Assembly (NCBI GenBank): GCA_951394045.1 | Contig: OX595991.1 | Span: 1,550,001-1,614,000, forward strand | Length of the DNA stretch: 64,000 nt | Origin: Nitzschia sp. DOCU1 | Taxonomy: Eukaryota; Bacillariophyta; Bacillariophyceae; Bacillariales; Bacillariaceae | Direction: 5' to 3' | Shown: positions 1,221 to 46,779 of the stretch, one piece after another | How the letters are laid out: each line of letters begins with the position of its first letter | Position numbering within the stretch: position 1 is the stretch's first letter | The notes under the pieces: model-generated | Databases searched by the model: none | The model's input: the letters and a program-made list of their open reading frames with translations, nothing else | Told to the model about the DNA's origin: nothing | Translations under genes and position numbers: made by a program

Positions 1221-4200
1221 ATGGAAGAAGCATGTTCGAACTGCAGGCAATGTCAGGTATCATTCAATGTCTACTCTTCAGATGTTCTGCGTCAGAAACG
1301 GGGCAAAAAATACTGCTTGGTCCCACCTGTTAATGGGTTGGCTGTAGCCATTGCTTTGTGTTCGCATTGCGAGCGATATCTTTTGTCTACCGGAAGACCT
1401 CAATCCAAAGACTACTGGCCATCAATGGTATGGGCATTTTTATCGCACAATACTACATCTACATCCCTCCAGCCAACATCTCTAAGGGATCGTTGGTCTT
1501 TGTTGCCTATGACCTGGCGGGTATGGTGGTTACAGGCAGCTTGTACCCTCAGTGGAAGTGTACTTGGTGAAGGCCTCATCTCAATGAACAGCCCACCATC
1601 TCTCTTCTCTGACAAGACCAAAGAAGTCTCTAATTTCAAAAAGGCTATTGCAGGACTACGGTGGCTACAACTGGCAAAAGAAATGGACCTTCACTTAGCA
1701 TATCCCGAGGTGCGTTGCCCATGGGGCTGCAGTGAGTATCTACATCGCTGCAATAGTCTTCCACTTGAAGACTTCTTATACAGTTGGAGCAATTGGATGT
1801 TTAGCACTTACCAGGCTACATCAGGAAGTTCAAAAAAATGGACAGACTGTATACGACCGGATTTCCCTAGTTCATTCACTATTCTTGAGAATGCAAACTT
1901 TTTATGTGAGCCTACAATTTGTGTTGGGGAAGGCGGTCCTCAAATCTTGGCTTGCAGGAATCATACACGTCAATCCCGGGAGAAATACATTTATCCACCC
2001 TTGACAATGACGGGAACTCTCTACACTGCCAATTCAAATCAACTCTCTCCAGCTGTTTGCCGGAGCCGAACTTTACGACAAACAAAACTTCATCATTTTT
2101 CCGATACCTACCAGACCGGAATTTTACAGGGTGGCTATGATGGCATAGACTCTTCATATGTTGTCAGCAAAGGAAATCTACAGCATGGAAATGCACTGGC
2201 TCTTTTGCGAGACTCTTTATCCATTCAAGGCAGAAGTGACATTCGTGAATATGTTCGGCGGCTCGGGCAGAATCCCCATGATGTGGCATATGTACCGGAT
2301 GATATCATTCAGCGCAAGTTGACTAAAGCACAAAACTTGTTCTCTGACCTGCCAGGGAGGAAAGAACTGAAAAGCGCAACTTACATAACTCTGTCAGATT
2401 CAATTGAGCTCCAAGTGCAGTCCTACGAGGCAAAGTCAAAAGTTCTATTGGTTTATGATACTGAAGGAATGTGTGAAGAAGTTCTTTTTGACCCACCTTG
2501 GCCACATCGCAGGCTTCGAGTTCATCCTTATGATGGGTATGGAGAGCGTTTTGCACGAATATCAGATTCAACAAAGACCTTTGTTGGCTTTCTTCTCCTT
2601 GGCCTCATAACAACCGTGGATGAGTTTTGGTCAATGCTAGTCAGTAATGTGACGACTAACCGGGATTGGTATGGTTGGTGGCTGGCATTTGCAACACAAA
2701 GTTTGAAACTTTCTGGCAGAGGCCGTGGTGACTGGAAGAAAAAGATATTCTTTGTTGAGACCCCCGTCCGCAAAGTAATTGACAGGTTGCAGTTATCAGC
2801 TGGGTCTTATGTTGATCAACTCGCTGAGCTTCTTCGGTCTATAGATGGTGTGAAAACTGTCCATGGTCGCTGGGAGGGGCAAGATGACTGCAATAGCGAC
2901 ATTGTCATTGTGGTAAAGCTGCTGGATATTTCCCCTCCAAACTCTGTCTGGGAACTTCGTTGTTTGGTGTTTGGTATGTTTGATAGCACATCAGATGTAC
3001 CCACCGGCATCCATTTTTGCCCGTCATTCTGGGCAGGCTTGGTGGTGCCAACCCACTCAGTCTTCTGAATTTGGTCGTAGCACAGGGCTTCCCACCAATC
3101 TCAATGGTCTCCAAATTGCAGTGTACTGTCGACAAAGTAGCAAGAAGCAAGAGACACTACGGCGACGTTATTTGAAATGTCTTGGGGGACAAAATAAATG
3201 CTATTGTGCCAGACATATGGTGGCGCTAGTCACCAATGGGTACTTCCAGCAGTCCAATTGTGGGATCACTTGCATGGTGAAAGGTCCACCAAATGGAGAA
3301 TCAGTTTGCAACTGTGCTTCTTTGTATATATGCCCGGAAAAGGCTTGCGTGATTGGCGTATGTGAGGAGCACTGGCACGAGGTGGTTGATGAGCTAGGCC
3401 ATCCAGATGAGGTTCTCTTTATCTCTGAGAGGGATTGCATAATTGGATGTGAAGAAGAACTTCTCCATGACACTGATGTAATTGTGGGGGCTTCCACAAG
3501 ACAGAGCACCGAAACGGCAAACTTGGGTCCTACTGAGTCTCATGAATTAGCGATTGATTTATATGGGGAGGTTGATGATGCTGCATCAGATGACAATGAT
3601 AGTGATGTGGCTATGATTCGCACTACTAACACTGCACGGCAACCAATGGATATAGAGCTTCATGGCCCAACAGATGTCGTTTCTTCTCCTTTGCATGTTC
3701 TTCTCAATATGCAAGGACATTTGCTGATTCGAAAAAACACTAAACTACGCATGCGAAAAAAGAGTTCCAACTTTTATGAAAGAATTGTGTCAAGGTCAAA
3801 AGGGCACACTGTTCCTTTGGTATATGCTGAGGCAGTATTATTTTCAGATATTTTCTATTTCCATACTCAGGATGGATCCATTCTTGGTGCTTTACCAACA
3901 GCCTTGTGGACAGACGAGACTACATTGGCAAAGTATGGAATAGCGTCAATGCGACAACATGGGCAAAACCGCATTTTGGATCCCTCAACCTTGTGCAGCA
4001 CAGATCCAAGATATCAATTTCTGACATTTGATGTCCTTGTGAACCTAGGTCTGCGAGGCAATGATAGCAGGTTGATCTTGCATCGAGGTTTTGCTGATCG
4101 GCAGGGAGGAGATGGTATTGCATTCCAGGGCAACGACAATGGCGAGCTCTATGGAGATTCATCAGAAAATGCTACAAATGTTCACAAACTCTCTGCCTTG

Positions 4201-7200
4201 GTTGGGCATTGCCCTCCCCACTACTTTTTCACTCAGTCCTGCAACCAAAAAACTTGTCGAGGTCTTAGAGTTCTCCGAGAATGGACAACATCTAGTGTTG
4301 CAATAGAAGGGGTCGCCAAGAGATATGGTGTGACGTTCGAGGAAGCACAGTTACTTTTACGTGAATCGGCAGCCCCGTTTGTTCTAAGAAGCTGGAATGA
4401 GGTTAGTATGTTATGGATGAAGTACATTATCTATTCAGTGGAGGCTCCTTTGCACGAAATTGAATGGGCATGGTGGCGTCATGAGTTTCAAGAAAAACAA
4501 GGAAACCCAAGTCATATTCATGCAATCCTGCGTACGAAAGTGGATATTTCAACTCCCCAAGGTCTAAAGAAGGTACTCTACAAAATACGAGGCTCTTTGG
4601 CTGATCTGATTCATTACAATGAAATTGAGGACATGAAAGCAGAAGGGTATATATCTTCTTCCCTGCAGCTACAAGAAATTTTGTGCGATGCCGAGAAATT
4701 TCTAGGGCATCAATGTCATGACAGATGCCACGTTCCCAAAGTGGACAATAATGGCGAAACACATTTTGTTTGTAAAGTTCCAAACAATTTCTGGTTAACA
4801 GACCAGCCCCAAAACCATTCTATTCAACCACTCCAAATTCAGCATTCTCCAGAGAGTTGTCATGTTTTGCGACTTCTCTCTATGATGGATGGTAACAATA
4901 TGACTGAAAACTTGTTGAAAGCAGAGCGCCATATTCCCCGAAGTTCAAACACGGGCGCCATATTTTCCCCGACCAATGGAAGACTCTTCATGTGTTTCCC
5001 AAGTGCACAAAATTTGCAGTTCACTACTGGCTACAGTGTCTCTGCATACCTTGCCAAGTATGTAGCCGAGTTGGATGAAGTTGCTCTTGTGAAGTTGACA
5101 CCCCCATCGGCCCGTGGGTCTCAATCCGGAAACATAACATCAGGAGCCACAAACATGAATGGTGTTTACACAACACTTCACAACACCAAAATTTCATCCT
5201 GGAAAAGAATTGCACAGACAACAAAAAGCAAGGTTGGTAGCGGCCACGGTCAAGCTCTTACTCAGATGGAATGCCTCACGGTTATTCAAGGGGAGTCACT
5301 TGTCACAAGCACAATTCAATTTATACGAATGCCAACATGTCCTCGAGAGTATCGTGCTGCCATTTTCAATCGCATCATAGGATCCGGACGTCGCCCCCAA
5401 GATATGCAAGCAATGATGGCTGTAACAGGACAAACTGCCAGGATGGCAATTGCAGGTTTTCCTGTCTCAAGGCTGTTTACTCCCTTCCAAATGGCAGTAA
5501 TTCAAGATGAATTACGGGCACCATTATCAACTGATGTAACGACGTATTTTGGCATGCGTCCTCCTGAACTGAGATTTGTAAGAGAACAAAAGAACTACCT
5601 ACGGTGGTTTGAACGGAAAACTGTCACCCCCCTCTTTGATCCAGAGGCTTCCATTAACTATGTGAAAGGCAATGTCAAACTGAGGCTGGAAGAAAGTGAG
5701 TGGCTAGATGGGTTCAATACCAAAATCCAGTTGCGGAGAGGGGCCATTGGTGAAGTGCTGTTATATGCACAACAGTCCGATGCTTCTCATTTTGGTGGCA
5801 ATATTTGGAAACAAGAGATGCTAGCCCTACTCCTAAAAATCCAGCGTTTGTATAAAGTCTTTGTGGAGAAGACAATAACTGTTCGCCTTCCTGCTCTTCC
5901 CCGAGCTCAAAAAGATTTTGATGCTTTGCAAAAGAGATTTCTTTCTCCAAAAGAAAGTGAGGCATTGCCTGTTGTCTGGCACACCCCTGTTTATCCAAAG
6001 AACCGCAATCGTTTCATGATCCATTTGCTTTTGGCAATGGGGAGCTTTGAGACTGAATACGAGCTGATGTTAACTGGGAACCTCCGTTCTGCATTCATTC
6101 ATGCCAAGCTGTACAACCCAATGCAAGGAGAGGAATCAGTTCTCAAGTTAACTGGTCGGTATGTAAGAGAGTTCCTTGCAATTCAGCCTGGATCAACCTT
6201 CCAATTTGATCGGAATTTGTGCTTGGCATATTACACCCTAAAAGAAGTGCTTGCTGAGGAAGGTTTGGTCGAAACACCACCTCTTCCTTCCGTTCTACAC
6301 ACTCATATGGTTGAAGAAACCTCATCTTCATGTCACAAGTTTTACATGATGCATCGGTCCTTGTTTCTTGACGTACTGTGGAATGATCTTGTTGCATGTG
6401 GGCTCGAAAATGTGTTGCCTGAAAAAGATGCTGTTCTCAGGGCCAGACAGAGTCCCATAGCAATTGACACGAATATCTTCTACCCACCTCCCCATTCTTT
6501 TCACCAAAGTGCTGCCTCATATGCAGAACAAAAAAGGACATTGTTGGCAATGAAGGCTGAGATTGATGCCTACATTGACCCTACAAAAAATCACAAAAAT
6601 GTTGTTGTTGTTGGCGGTCCAGGAACGGGAAAGACTACAGTATGCCAGATGGCGTGTCTCTATGCTATGAGTAAGGGGCTTAACATTATTTCAACAAGCA
6701 TCGTTGCTGATCGGGCCAAGCAGCTTGGAGGCATTCATCTTCATCGCCTTGGCTGCATGAAGCCTTCTGGAAGAAACTTGACTCCTGGCAGAGTTGCTGA
6801 GAATGCTTTGGCAGCACTATATCGCAATCCTGATCTGTTATCTTTGTGGCAAACTCTGGATGTCTTGTATGTTGATGAGCTTGGGTTGGTTGATGCTGAG
6901 CAGATTGCAACATTTGATATGATGGCCAGGTATGTGAAACACAGTGCTTCATTCATGGGGGGGATTTTCATAATGGCCTCTGAAGATATCCTACAGCTGC
7001 TGCCGTGGGAGGGGACACCAGTGATGATGTCAATGAACATGATTGCAGAGTTCAAATTTTATGAGCTCGTCCAATCTGTACGAGCCGCCAACTGCCCATC
7101 CCTTCAGGAGATTTGTGCTTTAACCAGAACCATCACATGGTCTGCTGAAAATATTGACCGTTTTATGCATCTTGTATCCACAAGTTGCACTTTTGTCTCA

Positions 7201-8415
7201 AGCCTTGTTGATTCAAGGATTCCTGAGGATGCTGTTTATATTTTTGGAAGGAGGGAGCCATGTCTCCAAGTTGAAAGACAGATGCTAGAGCGTCTTCGTC
7301 GAAGTTCAATTCCATTATTTATCTCAGAATCGGTGGATGAAGAGTCAACAACAGGTGGGAATTGGCATCCTGCGGCACAACCTATAGTCCAAAAACTGTC
7401 AAGGAAGCAGAAAAGAAAAAAGCAGCTTGTCTTTTACAGCAATGCCCGTTTTGAGTTTTGCCACAATGACAGGAACTTTCAGCAAGGACAACTAGCAATT
7501 TTGTTAGAGCTAAACGAAGAACAAATTCGGCGCAAAGAGCCTATCAGTGTCTGGGCTGGGCCTCCAGGCTGTAAAGACTTCCCTCCAATGGAATATTTCA
7601 ATCAGGTTGCATTGGCAGAACGAGGATGGAAAGTTGTCAAGGTCTCTTACACAACATCTCCAAGTGAAACTGTGTTTCGGGGTGTCCAGGCTCGACGTAC
7701 TCAGTACGGTCTCAAACCAAGGGTTGCAGCTACTATCCATGCTAGCATGGGTTCTACTTTATCGTCTGTTGTTACTCAAGTCACTAATGGAGATGATGGG
7801 TATGAGTATAGCCTGTGGGAAGCAGCACAAGTGGTTGTGCTTCTAAGCAGAACACGGAGGGCTAAAGATATCTATTTTGCTGGTGAACCATCAAAGGTGG
7901 CAGAGCATCTACTCCAGGTTCTTAGAAAGACAAATCGATTCCTTCCTTACATTCGGCAGCTCCTGCAACAACTGACATCAGAAAGTGATCATCTTTCAAT
8001 TATTCAAAATCCATGCATGTTCCGACCATGTGACGCACAACTTCCTCCAGGAAATCATGGAGTTGTATATGAGTTGGTGTCTACACGCGATATTAATGTG
8101 ATGTACATTGGCGAAAGCAACAACATTCGTCAACGATTGTGTCAACATAACAGTGGGGATGGCTCTGCAGTCACCAAACAACGCTTCCTTCAGCCATGGG
8201 CTGTGTATGGGGTGGTGATTGGGTTCACAAGTAAAAGAGACCGACAGACATTTGAATGCATCTGGAAACTTAAAGCACATTCAAGAAGACGCCATCAAGA
8301 ACCTCTGGATGCAGAAGCACTGCTGCATGTGGGCCATCAAATGGCAGAGGAGTGGAATCGTTCTAGAAGAGCAAACCTACGTGTTATTCGGTGTGGACAC
8401 ATTGCAGAATATTAA
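1221..8415 (+). CDS. Helitron-like Rep-helicase with C-terminal GIY-YIG nuclease
   Basis: Rolling-circle transposase of Helitron type. Two overlapping reading frames join if an intron from GTATGT at 2974 to CAG at 3085 (112 nt) is removed, giving about 2360 residues. The N-terminal 580 residues are unrecognised apart from Cys pairs near the start. After the intron comes a Cys-rich stretch, then the Rep region: a F-F-T-x-S-C-N-Q motif like the Helitron block before HUH, HUH motif S-H-I-H-A-I-L (about residue 1060) and two-tyrosine motif A-Y-L-A-K-Y (about 1237). A Pif1-like helicase follows with Walker A G-G-P-G-T-G-K-T-T (about 1760), Walker B L-Y-V-D-E-L (about 1842) and late motifs A-T-I-H-A-S-M-G-S-T-L and L-L-S-R-T. 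Residues about 2243-2316 are a GIY-YIG domain: V-V-Y-E-L, M-Y-I-G-E-S, R-Q-R-L-C-Q-H and a later Glu. ATG 1221 is the first in the upstream frame. The two-gene alternative remains possible. Confidence 0.82.
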
Positions 8416-43395: not shown

Positions 43396-43407
43396 GAACG
43401 CACGGAA
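43396..43407 (+). repeat. Short inverted repeat, left
   Basis: GAACGCACGGAA, exactly complementary to 46768-46779. Possible left end of the candidate element. Confidence 0.5.
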
Positions 43408-43487
43408 AAAGCGAGGCCCGCCACGGTTGAAATGACGAAACTTTCGAAACTTCGACCGTTGGGCCGTCGCGCGCGGACCAATCGACG

Positions 43488-44135
43488 ATGGCGCCGAAAC
43501 TCAAACGAGCTACGACTCCTTTCGACAAAACAAGTTTGCTTCCAAACGACTTGGTGGCCATCCACCAACAAGGCATTCAAGACAGGACGAAACAACAAAG
43601 CAACAATCATCAAGAAGAAGAAGGCAACATGAATGAAGCCAGAATCCACCGCACCGACCGCAAAGAACAATCCAACAAGCGACACACCAAGCGCAATCAA
43701 GTATCCTTCTCATGCAAAGGGGACGATGGTACCTTCATGGCGAATAGCTATCAGTTTGCTGCCACAATTTATGGGCACCCACGCCCATACAAACGTCCAG
43801 GGTATGGTGTCGCCAATGGCAGACGGTATAACCCCAACAATGCCGACCAAGTCGGCTTCATCAAGGCTCTTGAAACCCTCTACAAACAAGATACTGCAAC
43901 ATCATATTTTGGATCTGTGGAGGTTCAGATTACGGTTCTATTTTATGTTTCGAAAAAGAAGAATGCTGATATCGACAATCTGCTAAAATTCCTGCTTGAT
44001 GCACTACAAAAAGCGAGGCTTTATGACAATGATATCCAGATTAGTAAAGTTTTGGCTGAAAGACGATCCGTGCAGGATGAAGATCTTGCAAGGACATACT
44101 TTATTGTAGAGAAAAGAATAATTGAAATAGATTAA
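43488..44135 (+). CDS. RusA-family Holliday junction resolvase
   Basis: 215 residues from ATG 43488. The first 75 residues are basic and low-complexity, and a later Met could be the true start. The C-terminal 130 residues match RusA: a hydrophobic strand V-E-V-Q-I-T-V-L-F-Y-V, then the signature A-D-I-D-N-L-L-K-F-L-L-D-A-L, and Y-D-N-D-I-Q-I-S. The Asp residues of D-x-D-N and of D-N-D correspond to the metal-binding acidic residues of the Escherichia coli enzyme, and the Lys in L-L-K is also kept. RusA enzymes cut four-way DNA junctions and are typical of phages, prophages and some bacteria; in a nuclear genome this points to a mobile or viral origin. The neighbour gene is a tyrosine recombinase, which makes Holliday-junction intermediates. 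Confidence 0.85.
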   Translation: MAPKLKRATTPFDKTSLLPNDLVAIHQQGIQDRTKQQSNNHQEEEGNMNEARIHRTDRKEQSNKRHTKRNQVSFSCKGDDGTFMANSYQFAATIYGHPRPYKRPGYGVANGRRYNPNNADQVGFIKALETLYKQDTATSYFGSVEVQITVLFYVSKKKNADIDNLLKFLLDALQKARLYDNDIQISKVLAERRSVQDEDLARTYFIVEKRIIEID

Positions 44136-44186
44136 ATGACCTAGATTGATGATTATAGCAACTTAGTAGTGTTAGTGTTCTAGTGC

Positions 44187-46538
44187 TTACTTGCTGGGCG
44201 ACATCACACTCTTGACGAAGTAGGATAACAGTGTGCCAGCACAAGCATTGGCATCCTTGCTATTGGTGGTTGCAACCCCACCGGCTGCCTCTCTTTGTTT
44301 CTTTTCTGCCAAATAGCGAGTACCCAGGCCAAGGACATTGCCCTTTAGTTTACCAATGGATTTTACCTCACCAATAGGGATTCCATCCATCATAGCCCTC
44401 ATCGCAACTAACACCGTGTACTGGACATCGTCGGTTAGCTTTTCCAACTCCTCATCGTTCAAACTATTACCAATGGAAAGCTGCTTTTCCTGATCAGGTG
44501 TCCAGGAGGCTTGCAAAAGCTCCATTGCTGCACGGTACTTGGACTGATCTTTGTCGCTGAAAATGGAGAGGTGCAGCTTGTGCAGTTGACCACGATGCCT
44601 CTGCAACCTCCCGTCCCCATACATGTCTTGTAGTACATGCTTTAACTCAACTCCGGACCCTCCCTTTTTAGCAACAAGTGCTGCCTTTGATCCATATACC
44701 AGCATTGCCTTCATCTTGTTGCTGGGAGTAACAGCTTTTGCAGCAACACTAGCCATAATTCCACTTTCAGGGCTGGTCACATGCAACGCCGCTGTCGGTA
44801 GGTTTTTGACAGAATCTTCATCTGAAACATCGTCAATCTCAGCCAATCTGCGTTTACTGCCCAAAAGTTTCATCAATTTCTCGTTTTGTTTGATGATCAC
44901 AGCATTCTGTGCCATCAATGCACTGTGCTGCGACAGCACTTGACTCAACAGCATGGATTGTTGCTGCTGGATCGACTGTTGCTGCTGCAGCATTTCGGTA
45001 TGTTTTCCCACCACAGGTACAAGATTTTGACGGTTCGCATACTCGATGCCAACATTATTGCGGCTCCTGAAATCGTCACCAATTGCTTGGCTCCATTTAG
45101 TCAGAAGCTCCATTGCATGGTTTGTGTCGCTTGCAATATTCTGCTCCAACATAACACGGATCAATTTTTCATTCATGGGATTTGTTGTGTTGTACTTTGC
45201 CAACGACTGTGGAAAATATAGAATTGCAGAAGCAGTGCACGTCCATAAGAAGGGAGTCAAAAAGATGCTGTAGTCCAAGCCAACAAACTTTGGACCCGAG
45301 ATAATGTAGAGATGGTTGTGAAACTTGCGAATTTTCTGCAGGTCGTCTTCTGGCAGTGTTGGCAGAATGCGCATTGGTAGATTGTTTGCATTTGGATCAA
45401 ACCAACCTGCCAAGGAGCAGAAAGGAGGATAAGTCAATGCTGGTGCCACATCACGATATGCAGGCTTGTCTGCTGTATCGCTGGGTGCCCAGCAGCCCCT
45501 TGTTACTCGTTGCTCGCGAGTTATGTCACGATTGTTGATCGCAAGAAAATTGTTGGACCCCATGCGCAGACTTTTGGCTGTAGTGCTTTTGCGATATGAT
45601 TGGTCACAATATTGACGCAGCCACTTGGTCGTTTGAGTTGCAACTGATGCATCAGAAATGGCATGCAATGAGGGGAACATGAATTTGGCAATTTGTGCAT
45701 CGCGTTCCGAGCGATACAGCCCATTCTCAGCTGCAAAAAAGCAAGCAAATGCATGGTAGAGGTCTGTCTCCAAGTCTGAATCCGGGGGATTGCTCCCAAA
45801 AGTAAGGGGTGTCTTCTTCAACACCTTGAGTTGACGCCACATGGTTTCAAAATGTTCAAAATTGGTGTCCCACACACAGTCGTCATACCGTAGAAACTTG
45901 GGCTCGCCACCACGACCTACTCCATAGTAAGTCATCATAATGATGGCTCGCTTCTCAAAGTTCTGATTTGTTCTTGTTGCTTCCTTTATAATCATTGACA
46001 TGATGGAGTGCAGGTCCCTTCCCTGCTTTGAACTCCAATTAGAATTGCTTCGTTCCTTGAAACGAACATACTCAGAGCGTACAACACGATACAGTGGTCG
46101 AGTATTTGCGTCCTGTGAGTCTGTGCCCTTGTCAAACTGACTTCGTTTTGCAATGTTTTGGAGCCGGTCCACAACGTCTTTGGACCATTCTTCATCATTC
46201 CAGGCCTCGTGACTTGGAAACTTTGCTTTGAGGGCCTCTCGTACATTCCCCCAGTACTTTGCCTTGGACGAGGCCTCCAAGAATTTTCCACTTGTATTGT
46301 TCTGTAGAATCTTTGATTCAGCATACCACTCTCCAAATGATTCTAGAAGAATTTGCATGTTATCAGCTTCGACGTAGACTTCAGTGATGTCATCCAGACG
46401 TGGGTCACCACGTTCCTCTTGGAATCGATTGAAGGATGCGATGCCAGAATTACGCAGAGCCTTGGTTGCCTTTGCACGACCATACATGGTCTTGCGTAGG
46501 CTAACACTGTTCGTTGCAAGGTTGAGCTGAGTAGACAT
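44187..46538 (-). CDS. Large tyrosine recombinase, Crypton-like
   Basis: 783 residues, uninterrupted, from ATG 46538. The N-terminal region is helical and would be the DNA-binding arm. The catalytic set is recognisable: Arg in G-V-G-R-G-G-E-P (about residue 209), K-S-L-R-M-G-S-N-N-F (Arg about 325, in the H/K-x-x-R position), G-C-W-A-P-S-D (Trp about 350) and A-Y-R-D with the candidate nucleophile Tyr (about 361). After this comes a Gln-rich coiled coil (Q-Q-Q-Q-S-I-Q-Q-Q-Q), then a C-terminal domain of unknown fold. Cryptons are eukaryotic DNA elements with such a recombinase and no reverse transcriptase; assignment to a particular Crypton group is not possible by eye. It is convergent with the RusA-like gene, with 51 bp between stops. 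Confidence 0.75.
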   Translation of the reverse strand: MSTQLNLATNSVSLRKTMYGRAKATKALRNSGIASFNRFQEERGDPRLDDITEVYVEADNMQILLESFGEWYAESKILQNNTSGKFLEASSKAKYWGNVREALKAKFPSHEAWNDEEWSKDVVDRLQNIAKRSQFDKGTDSQDANTRPLYRVVRSEYVRFKERSNSNWSSKQGRDLHSIMSMIIKEATRTNQNFEKRAIIMMTYYGVGRGGEPKFLRYDDCVWDTNFEHFETMWRQLKVLKKTPLTFGSNPPDSDLETDLYHAFACFFAAENGLYRSERDAQIAKFMFPSLHAISDASVATQTTKWLRQYCDQSYRKSTTAKSLRMGSNNFLAINNRDITREQRVTRGCWAPSDTADKPAYRDVAPALTYPPFCSLAGWFDPNANNLPMRILPTLPEDDLQKIRKFHNHLYIISGPKFVGLDYSIFLTPFLWTCTASAILYFPQSLAKYNTTNPMNEKLIRVMLEQNIASDTNHAMELLTKWSQAIGDDFRSRNNVGIEYANRQNLVPVVGKHTEMLQQQQSIQQQQSMLLSQVLSQHSALMAQNAVIIKQNEKLMKLLGSKRRLAEIDDVSDEDSVKNLPTAALHVTSPESGIMASVAAKAVTPSNKMKAMLVYGSKAALVAKKGGSGVELKHVLQDMYGDGRLQRHRGQLHKLHLSIFSDKDQSKYRAAMELLQASWTPDQEKQLSIGNSLNDEELEKLTDDVQYTVLVAMRAMMDGIPIGEVKSIGKLKGNVLGLGTRYLAEKKQREAAGGVATTNSKDANACAGTLLSYFVKSVMSPSK

Positions 46539-46767
46539 GATGATGATGATAGGTGAAAAACAATGATGGATGGAGACTTAGTAGTACAGTACTTGCAGCC
46601 GACCTGTGAGCAATGACAATGACGACGAGTCGAGTCTTATTGCATCCACAATTTTGTCGCCGACACGATTCATAGGTGAGCACATGATTACAGTACATAC
46701 CTAGTACATACCCCGAAAGTTGTACGAAACTTGGCCGAAACTTGCCACATTTAGGGCGGAAAGTGCG

Positions 46768-46779
46768 TTCCGTGCGTTC
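46768..46779 (-). repeat. Short inverted repeat, right
   Basis: TTCCGTGCGTTC, complement of the left copy. It is preceded by an overlapping near-copy GTGCGTTC. Confidence 0.5.

Follow-up and report, generated by a model that had tools for sequence, protein, structure and literature searches.

Here we describe a young eukaryotic mobile element of about 3.4 kb in a stretch of 64,000 nucleotides of the Nitzschia sp. DOCU1 genome (the window; GenBank assembly GCA_951394045.1, contig OX595991.1, here C7, positions 1550001-1614000), which carries a gene for a RusA-type Holliday junction resolvase together with a gene for the tyrosine recombinase (YR) that probably inserts it. We consider it very likely that the element is a Crypton-like DNA transposon of two genes, one of which encodes a Holliday-junction resolvase; this estimate concerns the element and does not extend to the role of RusA, which is weighed below. 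Both genes were open and convergent, RusA on the plus strand and YR on the minus strand, with 51 bp between the open reading frames (ORFs), in agreement with a preliminary description of the same DNA. That description had given a span of 43396-46779, and the comparison of copies moved its ends to 43403 and 46762, giving a size of 3.36 kb. Copies and empty sites were sought in one genome of 52.08 Mb, assembled in 63 contigs. The features of the element are as follows.

43403..46762, no strand assigned: mobile element, delimited by alignment to the copies on contigs C4, C11, C1, C8 and C14, by the loss of similarity outside it and by the empty sites of the C4 copy
43403..43408, no strand assigned: left terminal direct repeat CGGAAA, from the comparison of copies and from the six empty C4 sites, which hold CGGAAA once
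43437..43452, no strand assigned: a pair of GAAACTT repeats close to the left end, probably recombinase sites, as read from the sequence
43488..44135, plus strand: gene for a RusA-type Holliday junction resolvase of 215 residues (start uncertain), from the ORF, Pfam and comparison of homologues
44187..46538, minus strand: gene for a tyrosine recombinase of 783 residues with an FLP/Ndc10-like model and itself without a Pfam match, from the ORF, alignment and model
46715..46743, no strand assigned: one GAAAGTT and a pair of GAAACTT repeats close to the right end, probably recombinase sites, as read from the sequence
46757..46762, no strand assigned: right terminal direct repeat CGGAAA, from the comparison of copies and the empty sites

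When the YR protein was searched against the genome, 10 rows were returned, which we read as 8 places, the rows C1:5339220 and C1:5346504 being counted as one broken copy and two C8 rows as one copy. Comparison at the DNA level revealed complete copies on C4 and C11, a C1 copy without the right end, a C8 copy split by an insert of more than 5 kb, a C14 copy consisting of the left part only, and further fragments elsewhere. The C4 and C11 copies were the best pair, with one synonymous base different in 3,404 bp, and the C7 copy of the window was 1.3% divergent from both. The aligned copies had the same ends (CGGAAA on both sides, or CGGAAA and CGGGAA in the C8 copy) and unrelated flanks. In the complete C4 copy, six of the nine GAAACTT/AAGTTTC words were located in the terminal 100 + 100 bp. 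The C7 copy was devoid of approximately 42 bp just inside the left end, at a position where complete copies had a hairpin (AAGTTTCGCGC-GCA-GCGCGAAACTT); folding of the C4 end gave a z of -2.8, with 2 of 200 shuffles equally good. The insert in the C8 copy had ATGCGCAT on both sides and inverted ends CTGGACCCCC/GGGGGTCCAG, the former being a duplication of 8 bp such as a hAT-like transposon would leave.

RusA was present in all six copies retaining the 3ʹ half of the YR gene, each time 121 bp from the YR match, and the two other places of this family were broken before the RusA-side half. The adjacency of RusA to this recombinase, which the preliminary description had proposed to search for, was thus recovered in this genome, and its suggestion of a two-gene element was upheld, with RusA and YR moving together between Crypton-type ends. 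The RusA family PF05866 had 10 matches in the genome, eight of them in elements of this kind: six in the family of the window element (YR1, family 1) and two in a second family (YR2, family 2). The match on C3 (L025:4767-5609) is a protein of 280 residues with a long N-terminal extension, a possible targeting sequence, encoded between other long ORFs; it appears to be a phage-type resolvase encoded by the host, and is the only such match in the genome. The possibility that the RusA of the element is itself a single-copy host gene, raised earlier, was not seen here, as the host-like C3 gene is a different one. The match on C16 (L028:1799-4419) is a protein of 146 residues encoded near the contig end, beside an ORF of 471 residues without clear family, whose relatives on C9 are broken; these two genes possibly represent another RusA-bearing element. 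Fifteen other Crypton-type YR loci, namely one nested in the family-2 copy on C5 and loci related to it, had no RusA of their own in the PF05866 search. These loci were hand-merged from 28 rows, with 7 matches of 23-36 residues left out, and among them the C5 locus was scanned against Pfam. On C8, at approximately 1.380-1.393 Mb, four Crypton-type YR matches (the first two in L056) were spaced by approximately 4.0-4.4 kb in one orientation, in what looks like a tandem array.

The second family consists of a 3.9-kb element on C5 and C6 with GAAGG ends, in which a RusA gene of 149 residues is convergent with a YR-like gene, the latter likely with a GT-AG intron as judged from the sequence. The C6 copy was frameshifted, and the C5 copy was split by another Crypton, recognized by NDC10_II (63.2 bits) and a sub-cut-off match to GCR1_C. 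The C-terminal piece of the YR-like protein aligned to one Crypton-type gene with 24% identity and an E of 3e-5 in a single comparison, with none of 200 shuffles equally good; against two other Crypton-type genes, 10 and 132 of 200 shuffles were equally good, and the similarity was not clear. The N-terminal piece reached an E of 0.007, and with its three partners 18, 123 and 3 of 200 shuffles were equally good. We call this gene a YR because of its Crypton-type similarities, the layout of the element and its ends. The RusA proteins of the two families shared 32% identity over 78 residues. Since both the YR and the RusA of family 2 differ from those of family 1, RusA occurs with two different YRs, and because the same layout is repeated with different partners, the pairing looks selected and not accidental.

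Empty sites, which the preliminary description had also recommended to look for, were searched in this genome with the joined flanks of five insertions, and 40 of 87 candidates were scored. They were found for three insertions of the two families. For the C4 copy, six paralogous empty sites were recovered, each with exactly one CGGAAA between both flanks, meaning that the target already had one CGGAAA and that no other target bases were gained or lost upon insertion. The family-2 copy on C6 had one empty site with one GAAGG, its left flank having one ACAG unit fewer, four bases from the junction. For the family-2 copy on C5, one GAAGG was present in each of the 3 sites examined among 33 matches listed, with the right flank matching over approximately 50 bp. 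No empty site was found for the C7 or C11 copies among the 40 of 87 candidates scored. The target of the C5 family-2 element recurs many times at approximately 1.3-kb spacing (contigs C3, C5 and C1; e.g. C5:3395150-3400524), and the element entered a tandem repeat family. It follows from the empty sites that the moved interval holds both genes and that insertion took place at a core that the target already contained. Taken by themselves, the repeats would also fit the duplication of a preferred target word; the YR of the element argues for recombination at a shared core.

The window RusA matched PF05866 with 42.3 bits (cut-off 22.8), with the Pfam domain at residues 96-193. Residues D161, D163, K167 and D182 were invariant in seven aligned RusA proteins, two of which are 99% alike, so the acidic residues described earlier as intact are indeed so. 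Their spacing of 0/+2/+6/+21 equals that of the catalytic residues D70/D72/K76/D91 of E. coli RusA. The protein is thereby like the phage and bacterial RusA family in its score and in its D-x-D...K...D arrangement; unlike them, it is encoded in a eukaryotic transposon and has an N-terminal extension. It is a member of PF05866 with the catalytic acidic residues and lysine, and is predicted to cut junctions. The start of the protein is uncertain because homologues of 168, 169 and 239 residues exist. Residues 86-215 were identical at the protein level in all six copies, with the C14 copy changed at residue 85; the changes upstream of residue 86 were partly nonsynonymous, and too few for a real dN/dS test.

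Two database relatives of the window RusA, P0005 (68% identity, 67% of the query covered) and P0006 (60% identity, 76% covered), had the catalytic residues kept. RusA relatives were located on contigs of 1940, 1095 and 1399 bp, lengths not seen among the contigs of the YR relatives, and these gave no sign of linkage. Two phage matches were obtained, the nearest (phage MEP301) sharing 37.6% identity across 47% of the query. Tblastn searches with three RusAs yielded different nearest phages for each, which fits separate RusA origins and is no proof of them. The sequence search of the PDB with RusA retrieved E. coli RusA only at an E of 0.49. No relative was found with the RusA alignment in the genome contig collection or with the single RusA in the viral contigs; the RusA alignment detected two distant RusA loci in the viral contigs (28% and 33% identity).

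The window YR had no Pfam family over the cut-off, and none at an E of 5 or better, and Phage_integrase was matched weakly, below the cut-off, in two of 11 family members (E 0.014 and 0.048). Alignment of these 11 members revealed that R209, K238, K322, R325, R347 and Y361 were invariant in all of them, and that the pattern R, K, K-x-x-R, W/H, Y was kept. Thus, the catalytic set is intact as described earlier, with the qualification that K stands where HxxR usually has its histidine, and W where the second histidine is expected (two distant members do have H there). Residues 1-500 were modelled with AlphaFold2 from the 11 sequences at a pLDDT of 73.5, although the value fell below 50 for residues 209-246 and 351-363, which contain or adjoin catalytic positions. 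The best matches of the model were the solved YRs FLP, Cre and Ndc10; an earlier model from 3 sequences (pLDDT 45) was set aside. FLP is a yeast plasmid recombinase and Ndc10 a kinetochore protein, and the window YR is unlike FLP and Ndc10/CBF3 in that the identity to them was 6-11%. From its residues and model, the window YR is a tyrosine recombinase with an intact catalytic set, substitutions included.

An hhalign comparison of the window YR with three Crypton-type YRs of the same genome gave a weak, collinear similarity (E 7.8e-4, probability 25), and the pairwise tests were negative. Public protein databases contained relatives of the YR, including one labelled as coming from Rhodella. The sequence search of the PDB with YR gave nothing meaningful, the YR alignment found no relative in the genome contig collection, and none was detected in phage records or in three viral-contig scans, each made from few peptide patterns.

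According to Kojima and Jurka (2011, PMC3212892), Cryptons are mobilized by a YR and have short terminal direct repeats of 5 or 6 bp and no terminal inverted repeats. Both families described here have short direct repeats at both ends, within the 4-6 bp expected of a Crypton (CGGAAA in family 1, GAAGG in family 2) and no terminal inverted repeats, and the decidable features of the class were found: the YR residues, the short end repeats and the single core copy in the empty target. The elements resemble CryptonF and CryptonS, as characterized there, in the YR, the terminal repeats and the occasional second gene. However, they differ in that the second gene is RusA and not a C48 peptidase, in that the ends are not the TATGG of most CryptonS, and in that GCR1_C, the CryptonF feature, was not found in the YR of family 1, which is without any Pfam match. 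A second gene in a Crypton is not new as such, because a C48 peptidase is encoded by some Cryptons of oomycetes (PMC3212892); the earlier statement that known Cryptons carry only the recombinase is thus imprecise. No description pairing a Crypton with RusA was found in the literature search among the papers listed, as judged by title, opening of the abstract or term counts, with Repbase and most subscription journals outside its scope, and the combination of a Crypton-type element with RusA was not found described.

What RusA contributes to the element can be approached from the likely course of the reaction. As in related enzymes, the YR would bind the GAAACTT-rich ends and cut at the 6-bp core, the element would be excised as a circle, and the circle would be inserted at a matching core by way of a Holliday junction. 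RusA may cut this integration junction, or crossed DNA left after excision, and such cutting would complete exchanges at targets sharing just 5-6 bp. We infer, tentatively, that RusA resolves the junctions of YR excision and integration, helping to finish or repair crossovers, and this is the likeliest role among those considered. Two points weigh against it: YRs normally complete both exchanges themselves, and the sister Cryptons of the same genome do without RusA. The C8 copy had a hairpin near its left end whose 13-bp centre (between GGGC and GCCC) was exactly inverted in comparison to the C4, C11 and C1 copies; this single case is a possible trace of cruciform cutting and rejoining, and was counted for a link of RusA to DNA junctions. 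Both cores hold GG/CC, which E. coli RusA prefers; this was not counted as evidence of such a preference, because the TATGG of CryptonS holds GG/CC too. A rather doubtful extension is a split mode of transposition, in which the YR would carry out the first strand exchange at the 5-6 bp core and the RusA of the element would resolve the junction, so that the target would need no matching recombinase arms; this mode would have arisen at least twice with different YRs and RusAs. According to PMC3212892, Crypton transposition had not been studied as of 2011.

The next likeliest role, which we regard as possible, is in replication or repair, where RusA would resolve branches arising in the excised circle or at the gapped donor site and raise the copy number, with no part in YR strand exchange. 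Conservative excision and integration alone adds no copies, as general reasoning indicates, and the RusA gene of phage MEP301 adjoins genes for a single-stranded DNA-binding protein and terminase, both of which suit such a role; the element, however, has no replication gene, and the 15 other Crypton-type loci of the same genome are without their own RusA. Alternatively, RusA may be cargo from a phage or bacterium, maintained because it brings some other advantage or still present just because the copies are young. The copies are very young, so the open frames alone prove little, and unrelated second genes, for example that of the C48 peptidase, occur in other Cryptons (PMC3212892). This explanation is made unlikely by the recurrence of the layout with a different YR and a RusA that is 32% identical over 78 residues, and by the conservation of RusA in relatives 60% and 68% identical, which may or may not lie beside a YR.

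The preliminary description had offered as an alternative an endogenous fragment of a virus or plasmid, for instance of a Polinton-like virus. Such viruses and virophages do encode tyrosine recombinases (PMC12220804 and PMC6459981), and the element shares with them YR-type integration in protist genomes. However, Polinton-like viruses are 14-40 kb (PMC12220804) and have capsid genes (PMC6459981), whereas the element is a complete two-gene unit of 3.4 kb with defined ends, several insertions and empty sites, in which capsid and packaging genes were not found, and its YR has no relative in the three viral-contig scans, made with a few peptide patterns each, or in the phage records. This origin is very improbable and was rejected. 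The suggestion that a host RusA lies beside a Crypton by chance could draw on the host-like RusA on C3, and is contradicted by the presence of RusA inside the repeated unit in all six copies keeping that side and in family 2; chance association was ruled out because multiple copies and empty sites exist, and we assign this explanation next to no weight.

Elsewhere in the window, an ORF of 1814 residues at 2971-8415 had matches to PIF1/AAA helicase and GIY-YIG nuclease and is perhaps part of another mobile element. The window also holds a gene for an SDE2-type splicing regulator and pieces of retrotransposons.

The family of the window YR has no clear counterpart in Pfam. Its element exists in two copies that are complete and nearly identical, and since empty sites are known for one of these, the reaction is testable. 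A resolvase travelling with a tyrosine recombinase would suggest that the finishing of junctions is sometimes the limiting step.
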